Shown: piece after piece, positions 9,963 to 63,706 of the stretch
Position numbering within the stretch: the stretch's first letter is position 1
How the letters are laid out: each line of letters opens with the position of its first letter
From: Bryopsis sp. KO-2023
Lineage: Eukaryota > Chlorophyta > Ulvophyceae > Bryopsidales > Bryopsidaceae
Reading direction: 5' to 3'
DNA length: 64,000 nucleotides
Assembly (NCBI GenBank): GCA_030272585.1
Contig: BSYQ01000006.1
Span: 377,001-441,000, forward strand
Made by a program: the position numbers and the translations under genes
Notes under the pieces: generated by a model
Databases searched by the model: none
The model's input: only the letters and a program-made list of their open reading frames with translations
What the model was told of the DNA's origin: nothing

Positions 9963-12900
9963 ATGCCTGGCTGTTTTCCGGCGCTTCGCTTAGCGAAGTC
10001 GCTCGGGAGGCGGCTGAAGAGAGTATTCCGGAAGGCCACCCCCCACCCACCAAGATCTGATGCGGCAACGGCTGGATCAGAAATAAGCTGCTGCTCCTTC
10101 AACAACAATGTAAGTAATGAAGCATTGTCTTTGAATAATTTGAACCCATTCTTTAAATATGTTTGAAGAATCAGTAAACTTTTTTAAACCCCACAGGAAT
10201 CTGTTTCATTGTTCTCATTCTGTTGTGGTCAGTATTGTGTTCCTCATCCCTAAGAGAGGGTACTCTTTTATTGCACTGTTTTGGGGACCTAACACATATG
10301 TTCCAGTCAAGAGACGGCATTGATTCAACACCCCGCATCAAATAATGTTTCATTGAGGGCTGTTGGACTAGTTTTTGTTTTGGAATTTTGAAGTTCTATT
10401 CTGTTTGTTTATTTCCTGACTTACAGATGGTGCAGGGTGGCATCCCAACATGGCCATCGGGGGTCTATCTTCCTCCTCAATACAAGATCTACCAAACGCA
10501 TGATGTGAGTTTTCTTTTCATTTTTCTCACCTTTTTTCATCAATCGATGCTGTCACTGTGTGCCTCATGTTTGTCTTCTGTCAATCGTAGTGGAGCCTTA
10601 GAGCGTTACCCAGCATCAAAAGAAGCCCAATGCGAGGTAATTGTTGGCAACCCAGAGAAACAAATAGATTTCTTGGTCGCAGCCCTACATCAATGCTCGA
10701 AAGAAATATGTATCGTCAAATATTAGCTCAGTAAACACTCTCTTGATTGCCTCAGGCCAATTCTCGTGTGTTTTTTTAGACAAATCATCAATTTTGCATT
10801 GTGTTTTGGGATGCAGTATTGCTTGTCAGGGTCTGATGCAACAAAGCAAAACAAAATATAATATATAACATATTTGTGAGGCGTATATTAATTCTCGCAC
10901 TTTGCATGTGTTTCAGGATGCATGGGCTACCCAGTTGCATCAGTAAGTCCCCCTTCACCTCCACCAAGAAGCCATCAAACTGCCACAGCAAAATTCCCAC
11001 TGCCAGAAACCAGGAAGAAACCAGAGGAGAAACCAGGCCCATCCACTCTGAGGGGTGAAAAACCAGTCCAAGTCTCTAGATCACAGGTGGAAGTGGGCCT
11101 TTCAAAATCTGTGGCAAATGCCACGGGTTCCCAAGCTCCAAAATCGGTGGGTTTTTTTCATGACTTCATCTGAGTTTTCTCTCCTTTGTGTCCATCTTGT
11201 CAGTCAATGGCACGTCACTGTGTACTCAGTTGTTTGTTTTTCCTGTCAATTGTAGTGGAGCATCAAATCGGTGCCGGGCAGCACCAAGGAAAGGGCCAAA
11301 CCAGGTGATAGTTGTTCCGAAAAAAATCAAATGCTTGATCCCATGGGGAATGTTCGAAATTGATCACCCTGTTTTTGTCTTAGGATGTTGTATGCGAATA
11401 TTTGAAGGATTCTTCAAATCAATGTAGTTTTCTCCATCGTACAAGAACCTTTGATTAAGCTTCCATGTTCAATGCATAAAACCAGGACTGAATAAGTGTG
11501 GAGGCTAGCTATAAGTACCTTGTGCACTCTTCCATGTGTTTCAGGAGACATTGGTTCCTCGATCCCATCGGCAAAACACCCTTCACCTCCACCAGAAAGT
11601 GCCACGTCTGACTCCCCAAAGCCGAACTCAGATCCATCCCCTTTTGGTGCCACAGAAAAAATCCAGGTCCCAAAACCAAACCCGAGTGCTCCAGTGCCCT
11701 TCCACAGTTCTCCAAAACCACCCATTTCGGCTCCAAGACCCATCTCGAAGGGGGTGACAGTCAAGAAGCTTCCGCCCCCTTTGCCAAGGGCCAGCCTGCT
11801 CCAAAGAAAGCGCATCTCCAGGCAGCCTCAGGTATATTGTTTTCTTATCCAAAAAATTCCTGCTAAGGAGTTTAAACGAATGTGTTGAAATAAGAACATT
11901 CAGGAAAACATCAAATGCAGATTTCTATTTGCTTGTTACTTTTTGTGTTGAAATAAAAACATTCAAGAAAACATCAAATGCACATTTCGATTTGCTTGTT
12001 ACTTTTTCAGGTTGCAGAACTGTTTCGGGAGTTCGTTGTTGGTGTTCCCGAGATTCTTTCTAGCACACCCAGCCAAAAGAGCAAGGATTTAAATCCAAAG
12101 AAGTCGGGGCTGGGTGTGATTGGAGAGATGGCATCAAAGAGCCCATACTTCCTCGGGATCGCCAAAGATGTCCAAACCTACCGGAACATGATTGAAGATC
12201 TCATCGCAACAATCCGCCAATTCCAACCGAAGGACATGGATCAAGTGGTCAGCTTTGGAGACTTCGTAGATGGGAGATTGGCACCTCTCACTGATGAGGC
12301 AAAAGTCTTGGACGCGTTCGACTGGCCTCCTCGCTACAACCACATCAGAGAAGCGGCTGGTGTGCATCGACAATTGCTGGAGGTGGAAGAGGGCTTCTTG
12401 CATTGGGTGAGGTGCCGTCTCACCGTGGAGGATGAGTTGCTGGCTATGGAAAAACATTTGGTAAGTGGAGCTCCGTCACAAATGAAATGTCTCCAAGAAA
12501 CAAACAATGCACCAGAAAGTTAACCTCATGTCCAGCAATATAAGAAAACTACAATGGAACTTGTTGGATGGTTAAGGTCCAGTCCACTCTCTTGAATGGG
12601 TAAATGGGTCTTGAATCTCTATGTGATGTACGACCAGCCGCTATGTTTGTTCTAGATTGTTTTTCTAGCAGTTCTTTCAAATTCAGTGGGATGTGTAAAA
12701 GAAAACTGATTGGAATCGTTCCTCCGACACGTCCAGTATTCTCACTGATCTTCAAATGAAGGAGGCCTTCATCTGTTAAAAAAAGAGTAAGGAGGGCAAG
12801 AAATGAAAAGGAAAAAAAGAAACTAAAGAGGGAGAGTGTCTCCGTCTGCAATGAAATAAAAATATGATTTTTTGTGGGATCAAAACAGGGTGCGATGATC

Positions 12901-13309
12901 GAAAAGCTGGATCTGCTCCTAAAAGACCAAGAGGCCATGGAAAAGAGATTTAAGGATGCGGCGCTTCCATGGCATACCTCGGTTTGGGTCAAGACGAAGC
13001 AAGCATCCCTTCAGTTGTTCCTGGCATATGCTTCGCTTGCAATCCCAGAGGTGGCAACCAGCAGCAGCAAAAAACGCTCGCAAAGCCTCCTGAAAAGTAA
13101 GCAAATTGGGCTGCATATTTTCTCAAACAAAATCCTGTTTTTAATACGTGAATTCGTTGCTAAGTATTTTTTTTGGTCAACTGTGGTTTGTAGGGATAGT
13201 GGAGTTTGCGTATAAAGTCCATACGCTGGCTGCAGGTTTCTGTCCGCAGTGTGTGACCAAGTTCGAAGAAATTCGAGCTTTGGTTGCCGCTGCAAGGGCA
13301 GGAGACTGA
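9963..13309 (+). CDS. CHUP1-like chloroplast-positioning protein
   Basis: CHUP1 family proteins tether chloroplasts to actin in plants. Nine exons with fully consistent phase: 9963-10109, 10427-10504, 10591-10636, 10917-11146, 11256-11304, 11545-11831, 12011-12460, 12889-13096, 13194-13309 (stop TGA), about 536 residues. The N-terminus is basic (MPGCFPALRLAKSLGRRLKR). Exons 4-6 are proline-rich. Exons 7-9 carry the conserved C-terminal region: VAELFREFVV, IGEMASKSPYFLGIAKDV, VSFGDFVDGRLAPLTDEAKV, FDWPPRYNHIREAAGVH, ALPWHTSVW and VEFAYKVHTLAAGF, in the family order. The long N-terminal coiled coil of land-plant CHUP1 is missing, so the protein is about half the usual length. Exons 3-4 and 5-6 look like an internal duplication. 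A decayed copy lies at 0.3-0.9 kb. Confidence 0.85.
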
Positions 13310-13476
13310 CTGGGAGGAAGAAGTCCAAAGATTTTTTTTTTCCTCCACAGGGCAAGATGTTCCCATGGAATGTTCTGTCAGGTGGAGGTTTTTTTTTCAA
13401 ATCTTTGGAGCTTTCATATGTTGCAAGGAAACGATGTAAGAAAAGCTTAATGCAACTGCTCTTCAAGTAAACTTGT

Positions 13477-16004
13477 GATTTTTCTCAACAAGTTCAGGGA
13501 GATGTTTGTTGCGATGGGGAGTGTTGGACCATGGGAAGCCAGCTGGATGAAGCTCTCCAGAAATGCAAATTGCAAGGCCAAGGATCTGATGGGGACAAAT
13601 CACCTTCTGTGGGAACACCGTTTCAATCAGCAAGTCTCAATATATACGAAGTACATGGTCATGCTAGTGGTGATGAGCTTCCATCCATCACTGTTACAAC
13701 CCTGGACTCCTTTGGCCAGATTGCTGTGGAGGATGTGAATCTGCGAATAAAGGTGACAACCCCTGGAGGACGACTCTTTGGTGGCCTTGCAACTGGCGAG
13801 GGCATGCTGATGAGCGGGAATATTACTGTGGCTGGTGTGATTCTGAGTGGTCTGCCAGGGGAGTACAATCTGACCTTCCAGCTGACTTCAGAAGATGGCA
13901 ACAAGGTCCTGAAGGAGTCCATGAGGGTGTATATTCGAGAGTGCCTCATTGAGGAAGTGTCCAGAGAAAATGGCCTGCGCTGTGACACTTGTGGGGCAAA
14001 TTTTTTCAGTTTCGATGTGACTGATGAGGATTGTACAGCTTGTCCTATCAACATGGCCTCATGTTCAGGAGGAAGACTGGTTCCTGTCGCTGAATTCTGG
14101 CACTCCGGGCCCCTTTCCTCCCAGCTCCATCCATGTTTATCCACAGAAGCATGCACCTACGAGAATCGAACGGAGGATCTGTTCGCATCATCAAACTCGT
14201 CCTCCACCCTGAGTCTGACGGCTTTTACTGAAGACTACCCCCTGTGTGCAAAGGTGACTACAAACAAAGTAATCTGAAGGGTATTTGAAAATCTGCATTC
14301 CAGAAAACTCACACCAACTATGACCTGTGTGTGTAATTCGCAAATTCGCTGTGTTTTAGGGGTACAAGGGGGTGTTGTGTGGGAGCTGCGAGGCGTCGCA
14401 TGGGAGGAGTGGCATGGACTGTAGGGAGTGCAAAGGAAAAGCGCTTGCCGGGTTATCGATTGGAGGGGCCATGCTTGCTTTGGCGGTAGTGTCCTTGATT
14501 TATGTCAGAAATGCTGCCAAATTTTCACAACAAGCGATGGTTGATGGCCATGCAAATGACACCGGGTCAGATTCTATCCCTCGAACAAAACAAAGGCCAA
14601 CAGATATTTTCAAGGTGAGCGATCTGGACAGTGAAAAACCGAGTCCTACGACCCCTGTTCCCCTTTTCCCTCTTCCTGTCCACCCAGAGTGAGTTGTGTG
14701 TCGTTGGGCAGATTCTGGTGAATTTTATGCAAATTACTGGATCGGCTGCAGCTATTAACGTGGGTTGGACGAACTACATGATGGCCATATTCACGAGTTG
14801 GGGTAAGTAACCAGTTGCGAATGATTCCGTGTGATTCTTTATTCTCAGTTGCTGCCAGGCGTGACTTTTCTTATGCAATTCAGGTACGATCTCTGGAGGG
14901 GCGGATGGCAACAGCTTTTTCGCGTTCGAGTGTGCGTTTTCGTCGGAGAAGAATGGTCTTGCTCGATCCGTCAAGACAACGGTCCTGTTGGTATTCGTAC
15001 CCTTCGTAGTGTGGGGAGCGTTTGTCATACTCTACGCTGTGGACTTGAGGCTCTGGTCGGGCATCGCATTTCGGGCCGTGTTGCAGGCAGCCTACATCAG
15101 GTGGGGAACTTCTATACGTTCAGCTTTCTATTTCTCTTCTCGCTGTTATATAGCTGAAAATGATGTGGGGGGGAAACATGTTGATGCATATCTCTGTGTT
15201 CACAGTGAGACGAAAGCGTTCATTCGGATTTTCTATTGCGTGCGCGCCAGCCCTTTGGATGGTCTGTTTTGGGCACAAGACACGAGTTTGACTTGTTACA
15301 GAGGATCGCATGCGCTTCTGGTTCTTCTTATCGGGTTGCCCGGCTTCTTGTTGATATCGATAGGGTTCCCAGCCTGGCTTCTCTACAAACTCACACGAAC
15401 CGACACTCTCGAGCAAGAGAACGTGATTGTTCGATACGGTTTCTTGTATAAGTTATACAAAAGGGAGAATGCTGCTTGGGAGGTGGTGATTTTGGTTCGG
15501 AAAGCGTTGTTTTCAGCAATCGTTGTGTTTGGGCGACCGCTGGGGGGTGGAATTCAAATCAGTCTTGCCTTTTTCATTATGATAGCTTCTATACTTCTTC
15601 AAACACACTTCCAGCCTTTTATAGAATCCAAGCTCAACAATTTGGAATTGGGATCATTGGTGATTTCTACATTCGCTTTCATTATTGGGAATTTGGTGAG
15701 CCAACCCGAAATGGAGGATGGAGGAACAATGGTGATATCTACCATCTTCATTTGCGGTGCTGGGATCTACATTGGATACACTGCACAGCAGATTCTCGAT
15801 GTGGTCTTCTCCGGGCTGGAAGAATGGGTGGAGAAACACAATCCAGAAAGTGAATTGCCAACCACCAGATATGGAGTAGTAACCAAGGCAGCTAATAGCT
15901 TGTCAAAAAAGTCCAAGGAGATTCTGATTAAAAAGAAGAAAGCCTACCTTGAGAAGTTATCTTCTCGTTTTCTCAAGACGTCTGATCTCGAATCAGATTC
16001 TTAA
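13477..16004 (+). pseudogene. 3' half of a Pmp-like multi-pass membrane protein gene, cut from its 5' half
   Basis: Five exons in consistent phase: 13477-14253, 14360-14614, 14712-14802, 14884-15100 and 15206-16004 (TAA). They match exons 8-12 of the intact gene at 41.2-47.7 kb. The first part is a Cys-rich ectodomain (CCDGECW, CDTCGANFFSF, LCGSCEASHG) and the rest holds several hydrophobic membrane segments (IGGAMLALAVVSLIYV, TTVLLVFVPFVVWGAFVI, LVISTFAFIIGNL). Homology begins abruptly at 13477, exactly where the 5' half at 18.4-22.6 kb ends. A 10-codon in-frame deletion removes the loop before DLRLWSG. No start codon or signal peptide precedes it; the nearest in-frame ATG is 13531. Reading frame and splice sites are intact, so the damage is positional. 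Confidence 0.8.
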
Positions 16005-16439
16005 ATTTTGCGTCTAGGAGTTTCAATTCTTGATTTTTCAATTTGTTTTGATAGGAAGTGTTATTATTGGTTGTGTCGTTGAGCATTGCGGGCAGTTTGG
16101 TTTACTTGGCAGTCTTCAGTTTTTCTTGTTTGGGGTTGTGGGCTAAAAGCATCAATGTCGCTGCAGGGAGGGGCTGTTTTTTTTGCTTGAATAATCGTCT
16201 TTCAATTTTTATCTTCATTATCTACATCATGAGGGATGTTCATATTTCAGTACTGGGCTTTCAAAATATTGGTTCTGCTATTTGTTGTTGAGGGCAATTT
16301 TGTTCATTTTTTGCATCTCTTTTTTTTTTCTATTTTGGGGTTGTGGGTTGCACACTTTTGTTGAGGGGAGGACTGTATTTTTTAAAATTTGTTTGTGGGG
16401 AAAATTTTCTTTTTTTCTTGCATTCATCGTCACTATCAA

Positions 16440-17325
16440 TCAATATCAAACAAACAAAATTTTATGTGGAGATGCCGCCCGGAAAACACCCTCATGATAT
16501 ATATGGGCTTCGCATTGTCCATCTGTGCTTTGGTCATCAGGAAGGCCAGAATCGGAATGTCAGCCCCGGATGCTCTGCTACTGCTGAAAATTGAATATTC
16601 AACCCACTTGGTGGTGTTGTCTAAGAACGACACCGGCTGTCGAACCATGTAATCAACTGGCACCGTCTGCTCAACGTCCAAATGTTTTTCATCCGATCTG
16701 TAGCAGTCCTTCGGGAATTCACATGGTGCACATTTGCGACAAATTGACATATTCCCTCCCTCGGAAAAAAAAAAAAGAAGTCTCTGAATTGCACTGATAG
16801 TGGTCCCAGCTCGCCAAAAGACCAGATGTGTCAAATCACTAATAAACTATCTTTATCCAGTCATACCACCTCGATGACACTGGGACGTGTTTCAATAAAC
16901 GTAAGCAATAGAGCAAAAAACGATATAATAAAATTAATGGAATTCGCCCCCCCCCCCACTCTCTGGATTTCTTCTTGTGTTTTTTCTTTTTTTTTCCCAC
17001 CCATTTTTTGACAGCTGATGATGGGCAGCTGGTCGAAAATCGGGATTCAAGCACCTCAAATTCGAATGGGTGGAATCACACCTGCTGAGAATCACTGCTA
17101 GCCGCCGGGTCTACAGAAACAAAGCGATTTCAAAATATCGCGGAACGGCGACCACCGCACCCACGTGCGTCCCAAGAATCAAACGCTTTTCCCCAGGACC
17201 GCGCAGACTGTGCCGAGGGCTGCGTTCAAAAGTTGGGCCAACTCATAGTGAATCGACCCACCTGTATCTGCAGCAAACGAAACCGTTCCCTGGGAACAGC
17301 AGCAAAGGAGCCACACGATCAAGAA
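16440..17325 (-). pseudogene. Truncated copy of the type I membrane protein gene at 56 kb
   Basis: Starts at ATG 17325 with signal peptide MIAFLIVWLLCCCSQG. The 29-nt mini-exon follows (about 17105-17077), then a block near 16780-16490 reading CYRSDEKHLDVEQTVPVD and FLMTKAQMDNA, nearly identical to exon 56681 onward of the 56-kb gene. Homology stops right after MDNA, where 3'-flank sequence of the Pmp-like gene begins, so the membrane and cytosolic exons are missing. The acceptor that precedes ACACGTCC in the 56-kb copy (TTAG) is changed here. This copy probably makes no functional product. Duplicated flank continues upstream to about 18265. Confidence 0.7.
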
Positions 17326-18412
17326 GGCGATCATCGCAAACTGTTTTCGAAAATTTGAGAAAACAAGGTTCCAAATTTGATCAAGAACAACGAAACAGGG
17401 ATCGGACGCGGCGAAGGAAAACGCTCCATCACAGGGGCAGCAGCCATCTGTTCTCCTCCCCCAGACAGAACTGTTTATGTGCTTCGCTGATAGGTGGGTG
17501 GACTCAACAACATGATTACACAATGGTGGGTGGATTCGGTCTTTGCCAGATACCTGTCGCCCCAGCGGTACCTTGGAGGATCGGTCGCTTTAATCTTGAG
17601 GTTCAGAAGCTCTATTTTGGGGCCCATCGACATACGTTTTCAACATGTTATGTGTTTTTGGGGTAGCCACTGAAGTCTCTCCCGAGGTGGGTGGCTGAAA
17701 GTACTGGACTGTGTTTCACGTGCTTCCTGTTCGGTATCAAGTCGACAGGGCCGAGGAGCTGTGGGAGTGGGTTCGAAAATTCTGCACGAGGGGTTGACTA
17801 CCTGGATCGCACTTGGGGATAGAAAATGAAATTATCTAGGCATTGAAATTACGGCGTTTCGTGTAGTGCCCCAGTAAGTTGGGTGATCTCTTTTACAGCC
17901 ATGAACGAATCCTCTTGTGCTTGTTTCTGGAAAAGGGTAGGACAAGGATGAGCCTCTCAAATGATGGAATTTTCTTTTTTCTAAATTTGACTGAAATGGT
18001 GCATCACATTCGACCTCAAAGCATATTCGGTGTTCTTCGTACATTTGTGAATTTGCTTCATTGAATGGTGGTTATGGTGTGATAACTGTGACAGGCCAAA
18101 AAGACTGGCAAGTGTTCCTTACAATTCTTTTCTTTCTGGATTCATATATTATTTATATATATATTGATTCATGTTTAGCAAAGTATGACGCCTCCTCAAA
18201 AAAATCCTAAATTGTTTGAATTCAATGTTTTCCCCAAGTCAATAATCAAAATGTGTATTGTACAGGTACGTTTCTGCATACCAGTCTACAACAAAAGGGG
18301 GCTCTCTCAGCCAACCTGTTCTGTGTAAATACGTGCACACGTGTTCGCTGGATTGCCTTGTTACAATCTCGGATTGGACCCACGATTTGCAACTTCAGCC
18401 AATGGTAAATTC
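17326..18412 (-). promoter_or_regulatory. Duplicated promoter and flank of the truncated copy
   Basis: Minus-strand sequence from 17,326 to about 18,265 aligns with 55,440-56,025. The part next to the ATG also matches the protease leader. No separate gene is supported; the conserved plus-strand ORF at 17,070-17,666 is antisense to this module. Confidence 0.5.
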
Positions 18413-21195
18413 ACCCGACTTCCATCCAATATTTCCCTGAAAGCTGGTCTTGTTCAGCACCACCTGTTGATCGGACAGATCAGACAGAGGATCATAATTC
18501 TTGCAATGTGCCAAGAACTCAAAATAGGAGCCATTTTTTTTTGCTGGCGAAGTGGCCCCCAGGGATTGGCATTCTTCAGCAACAGAGTTGTCACTTGAAA
18601 AATGTATTCCTCCTGCAAAAAAGTACAACAAAGCAAAGATCCCCACATCAGAGTGTCCAATTATGCTATGAAAGAGAAGTGAATTAGGATCAAGGACCAT
18701 TCTTCCTTTGTTTTTTTTGTTTTTTCCTTTTCTCCTTTAATTTTTTTTTTCTTTTTTTTTCCCCTGCATGAATGATTTTAGCGAGACCTTTCTAAAGCGA
18801 TAGATCTTTTCACTGCAAAATACAGGAAAGGCATCAAATGAAACTATCAAAAAAGGTGTGCTTTTACCTCCTGTTGCAGCCTTGTTCCCACTGAACAAAC
18901 AGGACTCACATTTCCACCGCTGCCCCGATGCACGAGCCTCAAAATGCATGGCAACGCCACCTCCACTTTTGTCAGCAGTGTTGTTCATGGTGGTAAGATT
19001 CGTCCCACTGAAGATTCCACCCTCAATATAAACCCCCCCTCCTGATTGTGTTGCTGTGCACCCAGTGATGCTGGCATCTGTAAGATACAACAGGCAGTCT
19101 GACAAGGCTCTTATCGCTCCTCCCACCCCAATTGCATGCCTTTCATCCCCAGCACTGTTGGAATCAAAATGGCAGGAGGTACATAGCAGCCTTGTCTCTT
19201 CCATATCGATGGCCCCTCCTCCATCCGTCGCAAGGTTTTCCAAAAAGTGTGCTTGTTTGACGATAATCAGAGGAAACGGAGCTTTGGATCCGGAGTAAGT
19301 GAATGAGGCAGCACCTCCCCACCTTGCTTTGTTTTTTGAAAATACATTATTTTTGAATGATGCTCCGAAAGAAGCCCCACCGACAACTGTCAGTGCCCCT
19401 CCTGTGAGGGCCAACCCCAGCGAAAAATAGGAGTCCTGTACTGTCAGGTCCCGCACATCTTCACCATACAGGGCTCCTCCACTTCCGGCCTCATTTTTTG
19501 AGAAAGTACAGTTCTCAATTCTTGAATCCACCCCTCCCTCTCTCATCATCACAGCCCCACCCTTCCCATCAAAGGTTTCTAGTTCAACGGCATGTCTCAC
19601 TCCAGTGGCCTTGTTTTCGAAAAAGATCGAAGAACGAAGAGCAATTAAGGAGGGTTTCTTCGAAGAATTCTCCCCCCCAGCCTGGAAAAAGAAAAGGATC
19701 AATAGTTCAGAAAGAAATGAATCTTGCTCAGATTTCCTAATGTTGCAGCCGCAAATTAGCTCTGAAAATTTAAGCAAAGGAAATATGAAACAAACAAAGA
19801 CAGAGGTGGTAAAACTATGAAGAGGAAACCCAGTCTAGGCATCAGTCAAAATCCTTATTAACAAGAATTGCACTACACCATTACTGTTTGAAATTTATGC
19901 TTCCGAAAATACGTTTTCTGCTGTTCTTGCAGGACACATGAATCCAAAAGGGCAGTTGATGTCATAATGTGCAAGGATATTGTTAGGGCGCTTACTGTTG
20001 CATACAAGGCTCCACCCCCATCCCAAGCTATGTTGCCCTTGAAGGAGCAATCATCAACATAAAGATCCCCACCATAATCCAATATGCCTCCACCCTCTTT
20101 ACCTTGATTTTCGGTAAAATTCATGGATTTGAAGGTTGCATTCAAATAAGCACCCTGTAAAAACATTCAAAGTATGTTGGATAGAGAATTGATGCATTTT
20201 TTCCTCGAAAGCTTCAGCACAACAACAATTTCCCTACCTCATCTTGGGAAAGCCAAATACCTCCTCCTCCTTCAAAACGCGCCCTATTGCTCTCAAGCAG
20301 GCACCTTTTCATTTCTAGACTCATGCTAAGTGCATCAAAACCATCAACGTTTTCCGCCAATGCATATATAGCCCCACCAGCTAGATGTGCGAAGTTTTGG
20401 GAAAATTCAACATCATTCATTTTGGCAACCGTCCTAGACTAAAGACACACAAGAGCTGCCCCTTCGATTCCTACTACTTGCAAGCAATTCCATGATTGAA
20501 AAACTTCATACAAGCTCTAATGAAGTGGATTTCACCAAAAACACAACAAGAAGTGACCCAAGCATTCTGGTCTCGGACCTTTTTTGAAACGGCGCTTGGT
20601 CTTTGTTGCCACAATGATGCCAAAGAACTTGCAATACTGTTTTTCCTTTTTTAAAAGCATCATGAAGCAAGTATGGAAACAAGAACCCCATATTTACTCG
20701 AACCAGACAGTTGCTGTAGAATAGTTTTCTGAATGGTTGGAAATGTGGACTTGTAAGCTTTATAACTCACGAAAAAGAGAAAACGAGAGAAAGGATATTT
20801 TCACACCTGTATGGCCACAGCTCCACCAGCGTCACCGTGGTTTGATTGAAAGAAGCTCTTGGACACATCCAAGACTGCACGAGTTTCAACAGAGGAAAAA
20901 AAAATACCACCCCCTCTCCCGTTTTTTGCTTCTCTCGTTAATGCGATGTTCCAAACAAATGAAGAATTGAAAATTTCGAGTTTGGACAATTCTTTGACAT
21001 AAATTGCACCACCCCTGAAACCCTTGTTAAGTTTAAAGTTGGAATTTTTGATTGATACTTTCAAATTCGAGCCAGATAAATACAGGCCACCCCCCTGTTG
21101 ACCGGGACGAAACTCTTCTTTTCCAGGTCCATTGTTTTCAAATGTACAACCAATCATATATACTTCAGAGTTTTTCTCAACGTCCAGAAACTAAT

Positions 21196-21237
<42 letters not shown>

Positions 21238-22628
21238 AAGGAGTTTGCTTGAGAACGTATGTTAGATTCAGAAAAAAGTGGCAACTGGAGATCAGTGCCA
21301 ATTCTTGGTATCTCGCCAAGATGAAGTTTTGAAAATAAAACATTCATTTGTTACAAGGTACAGTTGGAAAACAAAAAATGAAGAAAAAACAATTCAACAA
21401 GGAAATGGAGCATTTCATTATTTGAGGGCAAACCTCCCTGTACATCATGTAAAAATTTTGCTGGCAAATTTCGAATATCACGTTGGAATGATATTTCACA
21501 TGCCAAAATAAACAGTGTCCGGAGGTGAAAAAAATCTGTTGCTTGCCTTTCCCCCCCTGTCCAAATCTGCGTTAGAATTAATCAAATATACTGGCATGGT
21601 GTTACCTCCAAATTTTAGCTGATTTACCTGGGCATAAAGTGCACCTCCTTGCCCACCAGCCTTGTTCCATTCAAATGTACTCTCCCTAATTGTGACATTG
21701 GTCTCTTGCAAATAAATGGCACCTCCATTGTTGCTCAAAGCTAAATTTCTGGTGAAATTGGAATTCAATATTGTTGCTTGTGAATTATCCAGAGCAGCAA
21801 TGACCCCTCCCAAAGACCCATTGTTGTCTATGGCTGTCACATTCAACAGTGTGAATTCAGATTCGGCAGCTGAAAGCCCTGCAGGTCCTCCACCAACATT
21901 TTTGTTTTCCTCGAAATCCACATGTTTCAGAGTGAAATTCTTCGAGTTTTGCACATGAATCAAACCCTCTGTAAAATTCAGGAAGCACCCGTTGAAATTA
22001 AGGCCTGAAAGTGTCACATCATCAGACCTGGTTTCCACAACCAAACACACCCAATTCGACATGGAGCATATTTCCTGAAGGACATTCAACAGGGGAAATC
22101 AGTCCAAGCACCTTATCTGAAAAGCTCCTTTGCCCTGGTCACCAGGACACTGAACTGATGCCCCGTTTCCCTTGATGGTGATGGGACTACTGAGTTCCAC
22201 GGAATTCTCCAGCACCAGTTCTGGCAGATCGAATTCCAGGACTGCGCCAGCAGGCATGCAATTTGCCAGCGTCTCAACATCGTTGTCCAGCTCCTTCAGT
22301 GCGGCGGAGTCAAGGCTCACTCGCGCAGAAACTCCGACTACCGCGCGCACGGCCTCGCACCCCGACCCACCTGAGATCCAGCCGTACAAGGCGTTTCATT
22401 CCAACCGTTGCGTTACGTTTTGAATACGGAGCCAAAACGTAACGCCAGAAAAGCTTGACCCACCATCCGCATGTGAAGGGACGCGCAAGGAAGTATACAC
22501 ATGGAAGAACAAATCTGAACGACCCAACACTCACCAGCAGAGGCGGATTGAGGGAGGCCGATAGTTGTAAGGCATGCGACCACAAGAAACGCTGACAGCA
22601 GGCTGCCGGCAGACCGCAGTTTGCACAT
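18413..22628 (-). CDS. 5' half of a Pmp-like membrane protein gene, truncated at the inversion edge
   Basis: Exons: 22628-22535 (signal peptide, MCKLRSAGSLLSAFLVV), 22370 to about 22110, 22074-21628, 21190-20807, 20438-20238, 20154-19996, 19681-18868 and 18612-18413. Phases agree except at exon 2-3, where an in-frame TGA (22099-22101) lies between the blocks. The protein is built of degenerate Pmp-type beta-helix repeats (GGAIY, GGALYA, FxxN) and so is probably an extracellular right-handed beta-helix. Homology to the intact gene stops at GWKSG (18413). Beyond the break the frame adds a few foreign residues and ends at TGA near 18400, so a secreted form without membrane anchor could be made. 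The missing part is at 13.5-16.0 kb on the other strand. Confidence 0.8.
21198..21237 (-). repeat. (TG)n microsatellite beside a 3' splice site
   Basis: A pure CA run on the plus strand (TG in gene sense) ends eight bases before exon 4 of the 5'-half gene, where the polypyrimidine tract would be. The paralogue has the same repeat in the same place (46288-46355). Confidence 0.9.
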
Positions 22629-38822: not shown

Positions 38823-41177
38823 GGCGTGCGGATGCTTCCTGTCAAGTTATGCCCAATCTACAAGTACTTTAGACACAAGAGAACTCGCCAGCTGGATTGT
38901 TGTTCGTTTCGAGTCTTTGCTACTTATACCGCCAAAACGGCGAAAACCACGCGTGCAAATGCGTACACAGGCGTACGTGCGATGGGACAGCAACTTTGAG
39001 CTGGATCAACGCATTGAATGGAAGAACTGCCATAACTTCGTTGAGTGATGGAAGCGATCGCTTTGTGAACGTAAGATGCAAATGAAAACTCCCCTCTGTG
39101 TAATCGAAACGAAGTAATTTGAGCAAAACACAAATTTTTGTCTTTTTTGCATAGACCCCCTGCACAAAATATCGGATATCTGAGCAAAAAATGCTTCCCT
39201 TCGAAGACACTGCTTCAAGCAATAACAAAACGAAAGGTACATGTTTTTTTTGCCACGTCCAGAAGAAAGTTATCAGAACATGATAATCTTTTTTCCTTAC
39301 AGATTTAGAAGATTAGAGTTTTGCTTGGGGCATGGAAATTGAGGTAAGAAAAATTGTGGTATTGACGGTCTTGGATATGGTTCTGAATTGGAAAACATCA
39401 CCATCGATTGTTTTGACTTTTTATTATTTTTATTTGTTGAACTGCTTCTTGGACGAAGTTTGAGCATATGCCATATAGCCTGTGGCTGATATGATTGCCA
39501 CTGTGTTTTTTGCGCTATACATGCAGCTGCATTTTCTTTTCTGAGTACATCAAACTGAAATATTCTAGGGAGGGGTTTGAAAATAGTAAAGCGGTGGCTG
39601 AAGAGGAGACAACTGCTTTTCAAACCCCTCCCTAGAATAAGATTGCAATTTGATTTCGGGGGGGACGGTTTACTGAGCACAATATTGCCCAGCAGGGTAG
39701 ATCCAGCCCATCTTCCGAACTCCCACTCAAAAACACAATAATGTTGAGGCTGGTATGCATGGCTATTCTTTGCTCCTATACCTTGACTGGTTTTCTTCTA
39801 AGCACGCGTGACTCGTCATCTCAAGGCTAGCTTTTACTTAACCTCCAGAGATGTTGGATGTGCTTTTCCTTGCATGAAGTCCTTTTTTTACCTTGTCGAA
39901 GTGGCGCACTGCGCAACAATATAGGGGTTTCTGCGTTTTAAGTCTTGCACAAGTTTTTAGTCCGATGTGTTGCCGCTTGCTGTAATCTTGTTATACGAAC
40001 CAATTGTGCAAGACTCATTGTTTCAAATTTATCGGCGTGGGAATCTTGGCAGCCTTACCATACAAGTGCTCTGGAAGCCCTCCTTCTATTCTGTGTTGTT
40101 CTCACAGACGTCCGACTCTGCCCCATTCCAACCACCAAAGTTGAGGCTACGTTTGAGGAGTGGAATTTGACGATACAGTAACAGCAAGATGTTTGCTGGT
40201 TGCTCACGATAGAGACAAAGGCACGAGTTTGAAATGTGCATCGAGTCTCCTGGTGCAATAAGGTGCAATAAAAAAGAATGGCGACAGGATGAAAATCATT
40301 GTGCTTTTTCGTTCCTCATGAGTTGGGGTGACAATATTGGTTTGCGAATCATTGGACGGTGTCAAACAAACAGACATCGAATTACACTGTGAAGGAGATG
40401 CTACTCTCCTATTTTTTGACGGTGTTGTCTGTAGGAAGCAATGTCTCTTTATGCACCTGTGTGGAGAATGGGGAGTTTGAAGGCGATGGATCAAGAAAAG
40501 GAGGGTTGTATGATACAACTTGTATCCACTGGTGCCCTGGTCTGACGGAGGGGACTGGACTGCAGTGACAATACGACACCCCAAGCTCAAACGAACATCC
40601 AAGTGTTGACCTTTTTATCTGAGTCAGATCTGGTACAAGCGTAACTTCTCTTGTTTGTTTTGTTTTTTTGTTTTTTTGTTTCTTTTTTACCGCGATTTTG
40701 GCCAAAACACAAGAGCACAAAAAGTTTTTTTTTTTTTTCGTTCCGAATTTTTTTACAACGGGTTGCGCATGCGGATGGTAACTTTCTGGGGCGGCGACGG
40801 AGCTGAACGGGTGCTTTCTTATTTCTATCTTTCTTTCGACGTTTGTGACTACGGTAGTGATAGTGACGATGAATCCGAGGAAAAATAAAGATATTCCCCA
40901 CAACTTGATCTTAAGAAAGGACACCTCCCCTCAACAAAGGTGTGCAACTCATAACCCCAAAATAGAAAAGACTGCAATCTTAGGCAACCCCTCCCTGCAG
41001 CAAAAATGTTTCCGTCAACCCCATTACCCCAACAACAGAAGAAAAAAAATAAAATGCCAAAGTGGACGAAACTATCCTCAATGCCCAGCAACACAACCAC
41101 TAATAAGACTTGTAACCCCCAAAAAATGAAAAATCTTAAGAATTGAAACTCCTAGACGCAAAATTTACGACTCTGAT
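38823..41177. other. Intergenic region and 3' flank of the Pmp-like gene
   Basis: 38,823-39,250 is the presumed promoter of the alanine-rich gene. 40,260-41,177 (minus) is 3' flank of the Pmp-like gene and is homologous to 62,045-62,960; CATCCGCATGCGCAACCC is shared. The inverted repeat at 39561 is listed separately. No gene is supported. Confidence 0.5.
39561..39639. repeat. 23-bp perfect inverted repeat with 33-base loop
   Basis: 39561-39583 (TATTCTAGGGAGGGG...) is the exact reverse complement of 39617-39639. The full stem-loop is 79 nt. It does not border a visible gene or element. Confidence 0.9.
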
Positions 41178-44100
41178 TCATACGTCAGAAGAAAACTTCT
41201 CCATGCAAGCTTTCTTTTTTTTGATCAGAATCGCCTTGGACTTTTTCGACAAGCTATCAGCTGCCTTGGTTACTACTCCAGATCTGGTGGTTGGCAATTC
41301 ACTTTCTGGATTCTGTTTCTCCACCCATTCTTCCAGCCCAGAGAAGACCACATCGAAAATCTGCTTCGCGGTGTAAACAATGTAGATCCCGGCAATGAAC
41401 ATGAAGATTATGGATATGACCATTGTTCCTTCATCCTTCATTTCGGGTTGGCTCGCCAAATTCCCAACAATGAACGCGAACGTAGAAATGACCAATGAAC
41501 CCAATTCCAAATTGTTCAGCTTCGATTCTAGAAAAGGCTGGAATTGTGTTTGAAGAAGCATGGAAGCCATCATGATGAACAAGGCAGAACAGCTTTGGAT
41601 CCCACCCCCCAGCGGTCGCCCGAACACCACAATCGCGGAGAAAAAAGCTTTCCGGACCAAAATCAGCACCTCCCAAGCAGCGCTCTCCCTTTTGTATAAC
41701 TTATACAAAAATCCATATCGAACAATCACGCTCTCTTGATCGAGGGTGTCTGTTCGCGTCAGTTTGTACAGCAGCCAGGCTGGGAACCCTATTGATATCA
41801 ACAAGAAGCCGGGCAACCCAACGAAAAGAGCAAGGAGTGCATGCGATCCTTTGTAGCAAGTCAAAGTCGTGTCTTGTGCCCAAAACAAACCATCCAGAGG
41901 GCTGGCGCGCACGCAATAGAAAATCCGAATGAACGCTTTCGTCTCACTGCAACCACACAGATATGCATCAATATGTTTTCCCCACACTTCATTTTCAAGT
42001 ACCTTACAACAAGAACAGAAATGTGGAGATCGACTTGTAAAAGTTCGTCACCTGATATAGGCTGCTTGCAACACGGCCCGAAATGCGATGCCCGACCAGA
42101 GCCTCAAGTCCTGTAGGGATTTTTTGGTTCGCAACGCATGCACAGCGTAGACTATGACAAACGCTCCCCACACGACGAACGGTACGAATACCAACAGGAC
42201 CGTCGTCTTGACGGATCGAGGAAGACCACTTGTCTTGGACGAAAATGCACATTCGAACGCAAAAAAGCTGTTGCCATCCGCTCCTCCAGAGATAGTACCT
42301 GGATTCCATGCGAAAACTCATGGTTTTAGCTTGCAAGTAAATTAAAGCTGACAAACCACATCATCTCCATTTTGGAGAATAGTAACTCACCCCAGCTTGT
42401 GAATATGCCCATCATGTATTTCGTCCAACCCACGTTGATGGCCGCAGCCGATCCAGTAATTTGCATGAAATTCACGAGGATCTGCCCAGAAACACAAAAC
42501 CGACTTGGTAGAGAGAGATCGAGGTAAAAGGTGCATGTAGCATTCGGTTTCCATCCGTTGAATTTCTCACCTTGAAAATATCTGTTGGCCTTTGTTTTAT
42601 TCGAGGGATAGAATCTGACCCGGTGGCATTTGGATGGGCATCGGCCATGGCTTGTTGGGAAAATTTAGCAGCATTTCTGACATAAATCAGGGACAATACT
42701 GCTAGTGCAAGCATGGCCCCTCCAATCGCTACCCCAGCACGCACTTTTCCCTTGCATTCTCTGCATTCCAGACCACTCTTTCCATGAGATGCCTCGCAGC
42801 TCCCACACAACACACCCTTGTATCCCTGCATAGGTCACAGTTAGTGTGAATTTTCTCAAAACGCAGGTTTTCAGAGTACCCGAAACTGTACTTTGCTTGA
42901 TGTCACCTTTGCACACAAGGGGTAGTCTTCAGTATAAGCGATCAGACTCAGGTTGGAGGAGGAGTTTGATGATGCAAACAGATCCTCCGTTCGATTCTCA
43001 TAGGTGCATGCTTCTTTGGATAAACATGGATGCACATGCGAGGAGTGGGGTCCAGAGTGCCAGAATCCAGCGATAGGAACCAATTTTCCCCCCGAACATG
43101 AGGCCAGCTCCACAGTACAAGGCCTGCAATCCTTATCAGCCACGTCAAAGCTGAAAAAGTTCTCCCCACAAATGTCACAGCGCAACCCATCTTCTCTGGA
43201 CACCTCCCCAATCACACACTTTCTGATCTCCACCCTCATGGACTCCTTCAGGGTCTTGGAGCCATCTTCTGAAGTCAGCTGGAAGGTCAGATTGTACTCC
43301 CCTGGCAGACCACTCAGAATTACACCAGTCACAGTAATATTGCCACTCATCAGCATGCCCTCGCTGGTTGCAAGTCCACCAAAGAGTCTCCCTCCAGAGG
43401 TCAACACCTTGATTCTCAAATTCACATTTTCCACAGCAGTATGTCCAAAGGAGTCCAGGGTTGTGACTTTAATGGGCGGAAGCTCACCACCGCTAGCATG
43501 ATCAGCTAGTTCAGATGGATCAATCTTTGCTAATACAAACTGTGTCCCCACAGAGACTGATCTATCCCCCTCAGAACCAAAGGTTTGTAGTTTGCACATC
43601 TGGAGAGCTTCATCCAGTTGGCTTTCTGTGGTCCAACATTTCCCATCGCAGCAAACTTGTTCCTTGAAGTTGTCGAGAAACAAGTCCGACCCAGACTTCC
43701 ATCCAACATTGCCGTGAAAGCTGGTCTTGTTCAGCACCATCCGTTCCTCAGACAGAGGCTTGTAGTTACCACAATGTGCGAAGAACTCAAAACTGGTGTC
43801 TTTTATTTTTACTGGCGAATTGCCCCCCAACGATTCGCATTCTTTAGCAACAGAATTGTCACTTGAAAGATGGATTCCTCCTGCAGAACAGTAGATATCC
43901 CAGCATCAGATTGCCTAATTATGCCATGACAAAGAGGTGCATTAGAATCAAGGACCATTCTTTTTTTGCTCCCTTTTTCTCTGTATCAATGATTTTAGCG
44001 AAATGTTTCTGAAGCAAAGATATTTCTCACTTGGGAAGTAATCAAATTCAACTATGAAAAAAAGGGTATGCTTTTACCTCCTGTTGCAGCCTGGTTTCCA

Positions 44101-46296
44101 ATGAACCAACAGGATTCGCATTCCCAACTGTACCCTGATGAACGAGTCTCAAAGTGCATGGCAACACCACCTCCGCTTTTCTTAGCAGTGTTGTCCGTCG
44201 CATTAAGATTTTGAACATTGAAGGTTCCACCCTCTGCATAAATCCCCCCTCCTGATTGTGTTGCTGTGCACCCGGTGATGCTGGAATTCTTGAGGGTCAC
44301 CTCTGAACCCGATTGGACTCTTATCGCACCTCCCACCCCCATTGCATGCCTATCATCCCCAGCACTATTAGAATTAAAAAAGCAGAAGAAACACCTCATG
44401 CCCCCCTTTTTCATATCGATGGCCCCTCCTCCATCTGTTGCAAGGTTTTCCAAAAAGTGTGCTTGATCAATCACAGGACTCATAATCCAGCACTCTTTGG
44501 TGCAAGTGAATGAGGCAGCACCTCCCCACCTTGCTTTGTTTTTAGAAAATACAACATTCTTGAATGACAATCCATATGGAGGCCCACCGACAGCTGTCAG
44601 TGCACCTCCTGTGAGGGCCAATCCCAGCGAAAAATTGGAGTCCTGTACTGTCAGGTCCCACACATCTTCAACATACAGGGCTCCTCCACTTCCGGCCTCA
44701 TTTTTTGAGAAAGTACAGTTCTCAATTTTTGAATCTACCCCTCCCTCTCTCATCATCACAGCCCCACCCTTCCCCTCAAGGGATGCCAGCTCATCGGCAT
44801 CGCTCACTCCTGCCTTGTTTTCGAAAAAGATCGAAGAACGAAGAGTGATTGTGGACATTTTATCCGAAATCACGCTTCCCATCGGTACCTAGAAAAAAGA
44901 AAAGGATCAATATTTGAGTAGGAAATAAACATTGCTCAGATTTCCTATTGTTGCAACTGTAAGTCACACAATTAGCTCTAGGTAAATATACAAAGGAAAT
45001 ATAAAACCACCAAAGACTGAGGTGGTAATAGTATGAAGAGGAAACAAGGGCGGTTGATGTACATACTACATGTAGTATGCAAGGGCATTACTTGTGCAAA
45101 CAAGGCTCCACCCATTATCAAAGCTACATTCCTCTTGAAGTAACAATAATCAACATGAAGATCCCCACTATACATCCCTACAGCTCCACCCATGTCAGCT
45201 TGATTTCTGATGAATCTCATGGATTTGAAGGTTGCATTCAAATGAGCACCCTGAAAATGACATTCAAAGTATGTTAGATAGAGATTCAGTAATTGTCTTA
45301 AAGCTTCAGCAAAAATTTCCCTACCTCCTCTTGGGAAAGCCAAGTACCTCCGCCTCCCTCAATCGCCCTGTTTATCTCAAGTAGGCATCCTTGCATTTCT
45401 AGGCTCACGCTAGGTGCTCCAAAACTATCAACGTTTTTTGCCAATGCATATACAGCCCCTCCCACGACCTCCGCGAAGTTTTGGGAAAATTCAACATCAT
45501 TCATTTTGACAATCGTCCTACCCTAAAGACACACAAGAGTCCCTTCAATTCCTACTACTTGCACTCCCATCATTTGAAAACTTCATACAAGATCTTAATG
45601 AAGTGGATTTCACCATAAAAAGAATGACCCAAGCATTCTGGTCTTGGAAGTACAATTTTAGGCAGGGTACAAGTGAAGCAGGAAACTTTTTTTAATGGTC
45701 CTCGAGATCATTGGCACCATATTTCGAGAACTTGTTTCTCTATCTTAAAAGCACCATGGAGTGAGTATGAAAATAAGAATTCCATACTCGTAAGACACAG
45801 ACAGTTGCTGTAGATTGCATCTGAATGGTTGGAAATGTCAAAGATTGTGAGTCACAAAAAAGACAACACGTTCTACAAGATATTTTCACCTGTGTAGCCA
45901 CAGCTCCACCAGTGGCAGCAGCGTTTTCGCGAAAAAGGATCTTGGACACATCCAAGACTCCACGAGTTACTTCAGACTCAAAATAAATTCCACCCCCCGT
46001 CCCCTCAGCGAGAAACCAGCCGTCTGATTTATTCTCAACAAATGAAGAATTGAGTATTTTGAGTTTGGACAATTCCGTGGCATAGATGGCACCACCCTTG
46101 TCCTTACTCCAGTTACCTTCAAAGTTCGAATTCTTGACTGATACTTTCAAATTCTGGCCAACAAAAAACAGGGCACCCCCCCGCCCCCCCCTCAGTGGAT
46201 TCCACCCTCTTTCAGCTCGATTGTTTTCAAATGTACAACCAACAATATCAACTTCTGAGTTCTTCTCAAAATCCTGATTCTAATATGACACACACA

Positions 46297-46357
<61 letters not shown>

Positions 46358-47668
46358 AGAAGAAGTTTGTTTCAGATACTATGTCGAATTTGGAAAATAA
46401 ATCAGCCACTAAAGATCAGTGCCATTTTTGGTATCTCACCAACAAAAAAAAAGCATTCATTTGTAACAAGATATAGTTGGAGATGAATCAATCCCACAAG
46501 GAAATGGAAAAAAGTTTCCCACAGAGATTGGATATGAAAAAATGTTGCATCTTGCTTTTCACCCCCTGGCCAAATCTGCATGAATAATTATCATCTTTCC
46601 ATGCAATCAACACTGGTATGGTGTTACCTCGCATTTTTTTCTAATTTACCTCAGCAAAAATTGCACCTCCTTCCCCGCTAGCCTTGTTCCATTCAAAGGT
46701 GCTTTCCCTGATTGTGACAGTTGTCTCTTGCAAATAAATGGCACCCCCACTTTTCAAGGCTTCGTTTCTGGTGAAGTTGGAATTCAATATTGTTGCTTGT
46801 GAATTATCCAGAGCAGCAATGACCCCTCCAAAAGACCCATTGTTGTTTCTGGCTTTCACATTTAACAGTGTGAATTCAGATTCGGCAGCTGAAAGCCCCG
46901 CAGGTCCTTCACCAACGTTTTCGTTTCCCTCAAACTCCACCTGTTCTAGGGTGAAATTCTTTGAGTGTTGCACATGAATCAGACCCTCTGTGGAATTAAG
47001 GAAGCACCCCTTGAAGAAAAGGGCTGAAAGTGTCATATCATCAGACCTGGTCTCCACAAACAAACACACCCAATTGAACATGGAGCTTATTTCCTGAATG
47101 ACATTCAACTGGGCAAATCAGTCCAGGCACCTTATCTTGAAAGCTCCTTTGCTCTGATCGCTTGGACATCGAACTGATGCTCCGTTTCCTTTGATGGTGA
47201 TGGGACTACTGAGTTCCACGAAATTCTCCAGCACCAGTTCTGGCAGATCGAGCTCCAGGACTGCGCCAGGGGGCATGCAATTTGCCAACGTCCCAACATC
47301 GTTGTCCAGCTCCTTCAGCGCGGCGGAGTCCACGATCACTCGCGCAGAAACACCGAAAACCGTGCGTACGGCTTCGCACCCCGACCCATCTGCGATCCGG
47401 CAATACAAGACGTTGAATTCTCATTTTGTGCGCGTTGGTGGCGGCTGATCTCGGAACCAACACCAGGGAAGAAGCCAAAAAAAGGTGTCCGTCTGGAGCT
47501 GCTCAGTCGACGATGTATTTTCAACGGCCTCGCAAACGTAAAAAACGAATCAATCTGAAGGGGCTAAAACTCACCAGCAGAGTCGGATTGAGTGAAGCCG
47601 ATCGCTGCATGGTCTGCGACTACGAGGATCATCAACAGCAGGCAGCCCCCGGACCATGGTTGGCGCAT
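41178..47668 (-). CDS. Pmp-like beta-helix ectodomain protein with multi-pass C-terminus (intact)
   Basis: Probably a large plasma-membrane protein. Twelve exons: 47668-47575 (signal peptide, GGCLLLMILVVADHAAIGF), 47389 to about 47121, 47093-46650, 46279-45893, 45522-45325, 45250-45092, 44888-44078, 43880-42907, 42825-42571, 42481-42391, 42298-42052 and 41946-41178 (TGA). All phases agree except exon 2-3. Exons 2-8 encode degenerate Pmp-type repeats (GGAIYL, GGAVYAL, GGALFAQ) that should form a beta-helix. Exon 8 ends in a Cys-rich module (CCDGKCW, CDICGENFFSF, CLSKEACTYENR), and exons 9-12 carry roughly seven hydrophobic segments. Similar fusions are known among algae and protists, but ligand and function are unknown. 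Two partial relatives lie at 13.5-22.6 and 59.3-62.0 kb. Confidence 0.85.
46288..46355 (-). repeat. (TG)n microsatellite beside a 3' splice site
   Basis: The CA run on the plus strand (one interruption near 46298) ends a few bases before exon 4 (46279). Position and gene-sense (TG)n composition match the paralogue at 21198-21237. Confidence 0.9.
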
Positions 47669-48061
47669 TGGTATGCTTGCCATGGAGGAATTGGTTGCAG
47701 AATCTGGTGCTCAATTCAGCCACTTCTTTTAAGGCACGTCGAGGCCTTGTGTGTGCTCTTGAGGCTGGATCGACGCCTCGTAATCAAAGGGCAGTCTGAC
47801 ATGCATGCATTTTCAGCATGGTCGAGTTCACATTACTTCAACCAGACGGACGATGTGCTTGGATGTAATTACGCGACCAAACTGACGCACTTAACAACCT
47901 TGGGCCAAGGCTCCGAGGGTATCCCTGCTTGGATTCGTAAACCTGTTCGAGACTCCGAGTGGGCTTCATCTTAGAGCTTTCCCAAGGTGAACTTAAGCAT
48001 CAATTTATTCCACATTTCTCAGGAGAGACTTCATGCTAGCACTATAACTGGTGAAAATACT
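47669..48061 (-). promoter_or_regulatory. Upstream region of the intact Pmp-like gene
   Basis: The only DNA between the start codon at 47668 (-) and the LINE fragment that begins near 48062 (+), so it probably contains the promoter and 5' UTR. The long plus-strand ORF across 47426-47974 is antisense to exon 1 and upstream DNA. No core element is assigned. Confidence 0.35.
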
Positions 48062-55799: not shown

Positions 55800-56025
55800 T
55801 TGAAGCGACCGATTCTCCAAGGTACCGCTGGGGCGACAGGTATCTGGCAAAGACCAAATCCACCCACCTATCAGCGAAGCACAAAAGCGGTTCTGTCTGG
55901 GGAGGAGAACAGATGGCTGCTGCCCCTGTGATGGAGCATTTTCCTTCGCCGCGTCCGACCCCTGCTTCGTTGTTTCTGATCAGATTCGGAACCTTGTTTT
56001 CTCAAATTTTCGAAAACAGTTTGCA
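55800..56025 (+). promoter_or_regulatory. Promoter and 5' leader of the shared secretory module
   Basis: Aligns with the regions upstream of the ATGs at 7326 (-) and 17325 (-): GCGAAGCACAAAAGCGG, CTGTCTGGGG and GCCCCTGTGATGGAGC. With the copy near 17.5 kb the match extends about 360 bases further upstream. Confidence 0.6.
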
Positions 56026-62044: not shown

Positions 62045-63706
62045 ATTTTGCGTCCAAGAGTGTCAGTTTTTGATTTTTTCCTTTTTTTTGTTTTGGAAGG
62101 CTTATTAACGGTTGTGTTGTTGGGCATATATATATATATTGAGGGCAGTTTGGATAACTTTGGCATTCTATTTTTTTTTCTTTTGGGGGGGTATGGGTTT
62201 ACAGCATCAATTTCGTTGCAGGGAGAGGTAAGCTGAGACTTTCGTCTTTTTTTTTGCTGGAATAATTGTTGTTCGAACATTATCCTTTTTATTCCCATTC
62301 TCCTCGTTGTGAGACGGGTGGATATTTTTGTATGAAAATTATTACGGGAATTTGATTTTTTTTTTTTTTATTTTCTTTTGTGGTTCTACTATTTGGTGTG
62401 AGGGTACTTCTTTTTGGTCTTGCTTTTTTTTTCTATTTTGGGGTTGTGGGTTGGACACTTCTGTTGAGGGGAGGTGTTGTACTTTTTTAAGATCAAGTTG
62501 TAGGAAGGAAACATAATTACATAATCGTCACTATCACTGCTGCAGTCACAAATAAACGTCGCAAGAAGGAAGGCAATCATTGCCTTACGATAAGAAAGCA
62601 CCCGTCCAGCTCAGTCGCCACCCCAGAAAGCGACCATCCGCATGCGCAACCCCTTTTATTCTCTTGTGTTTTGGCCAACGACCTTCCAGGAAAACGCGCT
62701 AAAAAAAAGACATACGAACAAGAAAGCTCACACCAGATCTCACTGAAGGTCTGACTGTGGTTGCTCCAACACTCAACACTTGGATGTTCGTTTGTTCTTT
62801 GGGTATTGTATTGTCACTATAGTCGTCCCCTCCTTCAGACCTGGCGTCAGTAAATACAACTCTCATTTTCGTTATCCACCGCTTCCAAACTCTCCTCCTC
62901 CACACAGGTGCAATAAGGGACAGTTGTTCCCGTCCCAACAGAGGAAACTATCGTATCCTCAAAATCTTGGTGTCTGTAGAAAAGTCTTATCCACAAATTG
63001 AAGGCATGGAGTGCGGTGCTGAGGTGGTCCCTCGCCCCACACGAAGCTATGGCCAAAACATTCTTCCAATTCGAATTCCAGATTATATTGGGTCTCTTCT
63101 CGCCGCCATATCCAGAGGTTTTTATTCTCGCTCCCTAGATATTCAATTTCACGATCGCTACCCTCGGCTTGTGGTCCAGCAGATCAAATGCTATATTTCG
63201 CTACTGATGTATGTCTTTTATCATGAAAGATACTGTGGTGGTGAGAGACGCAGAAATTCAATGATAAACGCGGCCGTCCTGCCGAACAACTTTCCACAGG
63301 GCACATTCGATGCTGTGTGGTGATTTCGTCATTGCAAGAATTACACAACACACACAAGAATACTATATGCAGAAAGGATTCAATCCTTCTAAGGCGAGTA
63401 ACGCCGAGAAACGAGACTTTTTGACAAACAAACAAACAAAAATCGGATTACATTGTGGAGGGGAATTACCGCTATCTCCTTTAACAATGACTTTCAAAAA
63501 ACAAAATCCAAAAATGTTCATGTACGCTCAGTTCTAGAGAATATGACCCCCGAGAGGATATTCCGACAAAAAAAAAGCTGCCTGCCCTTGATCTGGTCCA
63601 CTAAGAAACCCCCTCAAAGATCGACAAGCAAACAAAACTTGAGTCTCCTCGACACACCAGACCTTTTTCGTATAATTGCTCGATTAATCGAACCATACTT
63701 GCGCAT
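62045..63706. other. 3' flank of the decayed copy plus unrecognised DNA
   Basis: 62,045-62,960 matches the 3' flank of the intact Pmp-like gene. Beyond it an open frame at 62967-63323 (YIGSLLAAISRGFYSRSLDI) has some coding look but no recognisable domain or splice partners. 63,400-63,706 shows nothing recognisable. Confidence 0.35.

Follow-up and report, generated by a model that had tools for sequence, protein, structure and literature searches.

A small inversion appears to have split a Pmp-like gene in the green alga Bryopsis sp. KO-2023

The window analysed here is a stretch of 64,000 nucleotides from the green alga Bryopsis sp. KO-2023 (C6:377001-441000, where C6 is contig BSYQ01000006.1 of a genome of 91.09 Mb in 28 contigs), and judging from DNA matches of gene parts across the genome it sits inside a cluster of intron-rich Pmp-like genes. 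Two pieces of such a gene lie close together in it on opposite strands, and the question raised by this locus is whether they are one gene cut by an inversion and, if so, whether the cut is an accident, a switch or a mistake of the assembly. A sequence-only reading had proposed that an inversion split a single gene and was very recent, polymorphic or switchable, or else a fault of the assembly. That an inversion split one gene, and probably recently, is supported by both ancestral junctions, which can be read in relatives, and by the lack of decay. With a probability of roughly 0.84, a recent, one-off and non-conservative inversion closed by end joining broke one gene of a large Pmp-like surface-protein family.

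The two parts and their junctions

The 5' part of the gene (18417..22628, minus strand) has a signal-peptide-like start and Chlam_PMP repeats, and the 3' part (13477..16004, plus strand) has seven to eight hydrophobic segments. With exon borders placed by hand, the minus strand carries eight exon pieces between 22628 and 18417 (E1 22628-22535, E2 22370-22112, E3 22074-21628, E4 21190-20807, E5 20432-20238, E6 20154-19996, E7 19681-18868, E8a 18612-18417) and five on the plus strand between 13501 and 16004 (E8b 13501-14253, with a start that is ambiguous at the inversion edge, E9 14360-14614, E10 14712-14802, E11 14884-15100, E12 15206-16004). All 13 pieces have an open frame without stops, and the donors are GT in 11 of 11 cases and the acceptors AG in 10 of 11. 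The earlier claim that the exon borders are in phase, except for an odd junction of exons 2 and 3, stands for the open frames and for that junction, but not for exons 4-5, where the phase of the hand-placed model also misfits and E5 begins one base past its AG. At both places the sequence is similar in a relative at 364 kb on C6.

Alignments within the window confirm that the two pieces match complementary parts of an uninverted paralogue (40985..47695, minus strand), which had served as the reference of the sequence-only reading: 13481-16176 on the plus strand corresponds to 43680-40985 on the minus strand, at 81% identity, and 18414-22655 aligns in the plus orientation, in four pieces, to 43691-47695 with 72-79% identity. 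The spliced 5' part matches PF02415 (Chlam_PMP) at 2.9e-18, with 64.4 bits against a cut-off of 20.6. For the 3' part no Pfam family reached its cut-off, the only one listed being Ephrin_rec_like (E 0.034), and a comparison of E8b-E11 with PDB gave weak matches only (best E 0.14), while a protein search with E12 gave a single match, a relative of 172 amino acids that is 37% identical over 34% of the query. In the hydropathy profile the signal-peptide-like stretch is the sole segment of the 5' part above the threshold, and all other hydrophobic segments are in the 3' part; the predicted products are therefore a beta-helix part that would be secreted and, detached from it, a membrane part, as had been suggested before. 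As they stand now, the 5' part reads GWKSGEFTIG and then a stop, a few codons past the edge, and the first in-frame ATG of the 3' part is at 13531.

The near break, inside exon 8, can be compared with many relatives. At 18 other loci the site is contiguous, with both parts on one strand and the matched ends 7-33 bp apart (C6 at 226, 283, 359, 368, 420, 436, 484, 645, 700, 709, 742, 761, 872, 941, 1093 and 1322 kb; C23; C8), and at a nineteenth, on C2, 92 bp lie between the matched ends of the two parts. Around the cut the paralogues typically have AAGTC, about ten bases and then a run of T; a pattern for this region fits 11 of the 19 loci tested, the paralogue of the earlier reading included, and three of the eight loci that it missed (L006, L007 and L011) look much the same there. 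In the window, one edge carries AAGTC and the other (G)ATTTTTCTC, which leaves about 8-10 bp of the near site gone in comparison with the paralogues, so the halves are not perfectly complementary with only a few bases absent, as had been thought. At the right junction (18409..18424, minus strand) the gene's ...AAGTC is joined to GGGTGAATTTACC... of the far side, as determined from the near-site paralogues, the far-site locus L061 described below and the re-join reading, and at the left junction (13470..13484, plus strand) the far flank ...AACTTGT is joined to the gene's (G)ATTTTTCTC..., one overlapping base being ambiguous.

The far junction is preserved unflipped in a paralogous block at C6:769.3-771.5 kb. 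The flank to the left of 13477 matches C6:770430-770598 with 86% identity and the match stops at the edge, while the final part of the inverted segment has its counterpart at C6:770846-771520, on the minus strand. At L061, a locus of 1.2 kb, ...AAGTAAACTTGT is followed directly by GGGTGAATTTATCATTGGCTGAAG, which are the two far edges of the window side by side with no base missing, and a collinear copy (C6:769255-770423) of the gene that neighbours the left edge runs straight into this unflipped site. As both ancestral junctions are known, the flipped order of the window is taken to be derived and the unflipped order ancestral. With the near site taken from the paralogues and the far site from L061, the inverted segment is about 4.94 kb long (13477..18416) and holds the 3' part of the gene with the 3' flank that follows it, as well as a small gene-like stretch.

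The placement of the right edge turns on four bases, GGGT at 18413-18416, the last four of the minus-strand half as the sequence-only reading drew it with its edge at 18413. L061 has the same bases at its unflipped far site; the paralogues carry GGGT at the near site too, but with one more base before it. We give GGGT to the far side because this assignment needs no further event, and the edge is then best placed at 18416/18417. This also bears on the observation that the two halves re-join in frame. The cut used earlier does read in frame. Both cuts that leave GGGT with the far side, however, put the join out of frame, to which a one-base deletion lying about 20 bp into the right piece contributes. 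The seamless re-join is thus probably a coincidence, and such an apparently clean fit can mislead when the far junction has not been seen.

We reject the possibility that the two pieces are independent fragments, as both break off at the same point to within about 10 bp, and their opposite ends correspond to a single unflipped far site. A third locus with the intact gene had been named as a finding that would make them independent. Contiguous relatives do exist, but none of them is the same gene, the nearest among the matches listed (C6:364-371 kb) sharing 86% identity over the 5' part and 81% over the 3' part, and the halves are not made independent thereby. No second allele or unflipped copy turned up either, none of the matches listed being more than 86% identical.

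Mechanism and age of the inversion

The edges were searched for sequences that could pair. The best exact inverted repeat within 80 bp of them is 8 bp long, which 109 of 300 random pairs equalled or bettered, and a comparison of 1.5 kb to each side gave, as its best inverted match, 13 bp of low-complexity sequence. With bases lost at the near break, none lost at the far one and no inverted repeat, the simplest account is two double-strand breaks followed by end joining, and breakage with end joining is described as an inversion mechanism in passages on Drosophila (PMC3355041). Comparison with the relatives shows that one break fell inside exon 8 and the other 2.4 kb past the 3' end of the gene, between the small gene-like stretch and the neighbouring gene, and that the 4.94-kb piece between them was turned round and rejoined. 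From the scars we infer that non-homologous end joining made the repair, in which the short GGGT at both sites may have assisted. The outcome is a secreted-type beta-helix frame that runs into a stop a few codons beyond the edge, together with a membrane part severed from its original start.

That the inversion is probably recent is suggested by what has not happened to the two parts. Outside the exons, the window gene and the 364-kb copy differ by 467 substitutions in 2305 aligned bases and by 20 frame-shifting insertions or deletions (indels), a count that omits three lying on or close to the edges as well as two gaps where the alignments end. Over the 1548 codons, 3.4 stops or frameshifts are expected for each 1% of neutral divergence, and none was seen outside the edge, which bounds the neutral divergence since the break at 0.88% (95% bound), or at 1.40% if the one-base deletion is counted. 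The coding indels relative to the 364-kb copy are multiples of three, except for this one-base deletion near the edge and a one-base difference near the C-terminus, which we read as belonging to the 364-kb relative, because the ending of the window gene resembles that of the copy at C6:703 kb. The little decay that is seen would then reflect that too little time has passed.

Measured against the 364-kb copy, the number of synonymous substitutions per site (dS) in the window gene is 0.16 for the 5' part and 0.42 for the 3' part, and the ratio of nonsynonymous to synonymous substitutions (dN/dS) is 0.52 and 0.23. Three-point arithmetic for the 3' part gives about 0.25 on the window branch against 0.21 on that of the relative, so no relaxation is visible. 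The 5' region of this relative, the closest among the matches listed (L032, C6:364-368 kb), has an in-frame stop in its exon 3 match and may itself be broken.

Inversions in the gene family and other explanations

The 200 matches of the gene parts were grouped into 52 clusters, of which 25 have at least 2 kb matched. Nine loci, all inside these 25, are of mixed strand, one such cluster also holding an ordinary locus (the 25, and the position of all nine within them, were counted by eye), and they form four classes of inversion, the window locus and three others over eight further loci. In the second class, at C6:701.73-703.36 kb (C6:701726-703360; L018, L024), the 3' membrane part is separated by an internal inversion with 7 bp missing, across which an intact relative continues. 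This copy lacks the usual splice donor at the edge and has a frame change in E12, both signs of decay, and its first six exons are not among the matches. The third class consists of four loci near C6 718, 1520, 1550 and 1728 kb (among them L062 and L063), in which exon 2 and part of exon 3 are flipped; two copies that were compared are 90% identical and have the same edge sequence, and the flip of this class has therefore been inherited. In the fourth, three loci near C6 1507, 1562 and 1708 kb (among them L053 and L054), a piece of exon 6 of about 180 bp is flipped, as read in two of them. No copy of the third and fourth classes has a match to the 3' part, and stops occur in the exon matches of L053, L054/L058 and L062, with none in L063.

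An error of the assembly, with an unflipped gene on the real chromosome, is an unlikely explanation. A single assembly is indeed the only witness of the arrangement, but the window is free of Ns, the inversion edges lack inverted repeats that could mislead an assembler, and a loss of 8-10 bp compared with the relatives is not what we would expect a flip made by software to leave behind. The third and fourth classes furthermore recur in several separately located copies, with the same edge in two of the third, which shows that the family does undergo real inversions.

The three further classes have their breaks at different positions, and the family thus looks prone to inversion. It could be argued that the cluster is a hot spot where recurrent breakage and inversion act as a generator of diversity, turning anchored beta-helix surface proteins into secreted ones and separate membrane parts, some of which last as new genes, but we consider this improbable.

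Several observations speak against our conclusion that one gene was recently broken by end joining. The missing decay would also be compatible with constraint that still acts on each of the two parts. The far ancestral site is taken from a single paralogous block, GGGT is found at both sites and its assignment is made by parsimony, and the repair pathway is read from the scars alone. The one-base deletion 20 bp into the right piece may predate the break, and the inversion would then have struck a gene that was damaged before. Both edges also read GT-GA across the cut, in matching orientation. Trees of five exon sets do not place both parts beside one paralogue: E7 and E8a together group with the 364-kb copy on C6, and E8a alone and the 3' sets have no supported grouping there. 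The dS to this copy ranges from 0.03 to 0.63 by exon, which together with the discordant trees looks like gene conversion, and for this reason we do not use the trees as proof of a single origin.

Another possible reading is that the gene was divided and the parts kept by selection, both now being separate working genes. Both parts are open, the dN/dS of the 3' part is low relative to its relatives (0.23 against the 364-kb copy), and copies with only the 5' part matched exist at C6 1.5-1.73 Mb. The ratio would however mostly reflect the time before the break, the 3' part no longer has the start that it once had (a new one was looked for only as the first ATG), and three of the four partly examined copies with only a 5' part contain stops (L053, L054/L058 and L062, the exception being L063). 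We consider such a fission unlikely. The sequence-only reading also considered a switch, in which a recombinase would flip the 4.94-kb segment between short inverted sites and turn an anchored protein into a secreted one; the GT-GA at both edges, the in-frame re-join at the earlier cut and the little decay would suit it, but we consider it very improbable, since inverted repeats near the edges are no better than chance, the exchange is non-conservative when compared with L061 and the paralogues, a conservative one would need several prior small deletions that all lie beside the future edges, the in-frame re-join hinges on the assignment of GGGT, and no unflipped allele is found among the matches listed, the best being 86% for the gene and 86% for the far flank.

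Surroundings and known systems

The gene-like stretch carried along in the inverted segment (16436..17589, minus strand) is a putative gene with open reading frames and a signal-peptide-like start near 17.3 kb, and has a paralogue at 55729-56895 of the window that matches at 80%. Outside the left edge, the neighbouring gene (11957..13310, plus strand) is likewise putative, judged from its open frame and its collinear copy. Between this gene and the edge, at 13324-13409, there is a perfect inverted repeat of 11 bp whose arms are 64 bp apart, presumably a hairpin-like 3' element or a small repeat; the stretch around it is found again at seven places on C2. Near the right edge, a stretch of about 100 bp (18266-18368) is also found on C23 and C13, and is unmatched at this position in L061. 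The open frame at 48064-48669, directly upstream of the intact paralogue, looks like a piece of a reverse transcriptase. A third family copy in the window (59334..62493, plus strand) has a complete 3' part, with the 5' part matched over its last 75 bp only, and two stretches, one of about 4.8 and one of about 7.7 kb, break up the 3' part of the family copy at C6:941756-956788.

The family was traced with the DNA of the exons, since a six-frame search of the genome with PF02415 gave 0 matches at E 0.001, which we take as the low power of a model of only 19 residues. Among the papers listed first in searches of the open-licence part of PubMed Central (PMC) there was no report of the Pmp-like gene family or of inversions within it. 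As both ancestral junctions of this small inversion are readable, the scar of gene splitting can be seen here before decay, and with four classes in one family, small inversions may notably break and reshape families of tandem surface genes in this genome.

Chlamydial Pmp proteins end in a C-terminal autotransporter barrel. None was matched at the Pfam cut-off in the 3' part of the Bryopsis gene, which shares the Pmp repeat model (PF02415) with them in its 5' part and differs in having seven to eight hydrophobic segments after the repeats, and in being eukaryotic and intron-rich. Pmp repeats are linked to the beta-helix in the abstract of PMC11166332. The conservative inversion switches of bacteria, e.g. 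C. difficile, likewise concern a short inverted segment that affects a surface-type protein, and what is said of invertible sites in the relevant part of PMC5903667 gives short terminal inverted repeats, typically of 10-20 bp and possibly with mismatches, as their hallmark. The gene studied here is eukaryotic and bears introns, its edges have no terminal inverted repeats beyond chance, and bases were lost. Close in kind are also the inversions that arise by breakage and end joining in Drosophila, where, in the passages concerned of PMC3355041, two non-homologous breaks are rejoined in reverse order, repeats are not needed and genes at the edges may be altered. Compared with these, the Bryopsis inversion is without the inverted duplications that staggered breaks leave, spans only 4.9 kb, cuts inside an exon and carries a small deletion at one edge.

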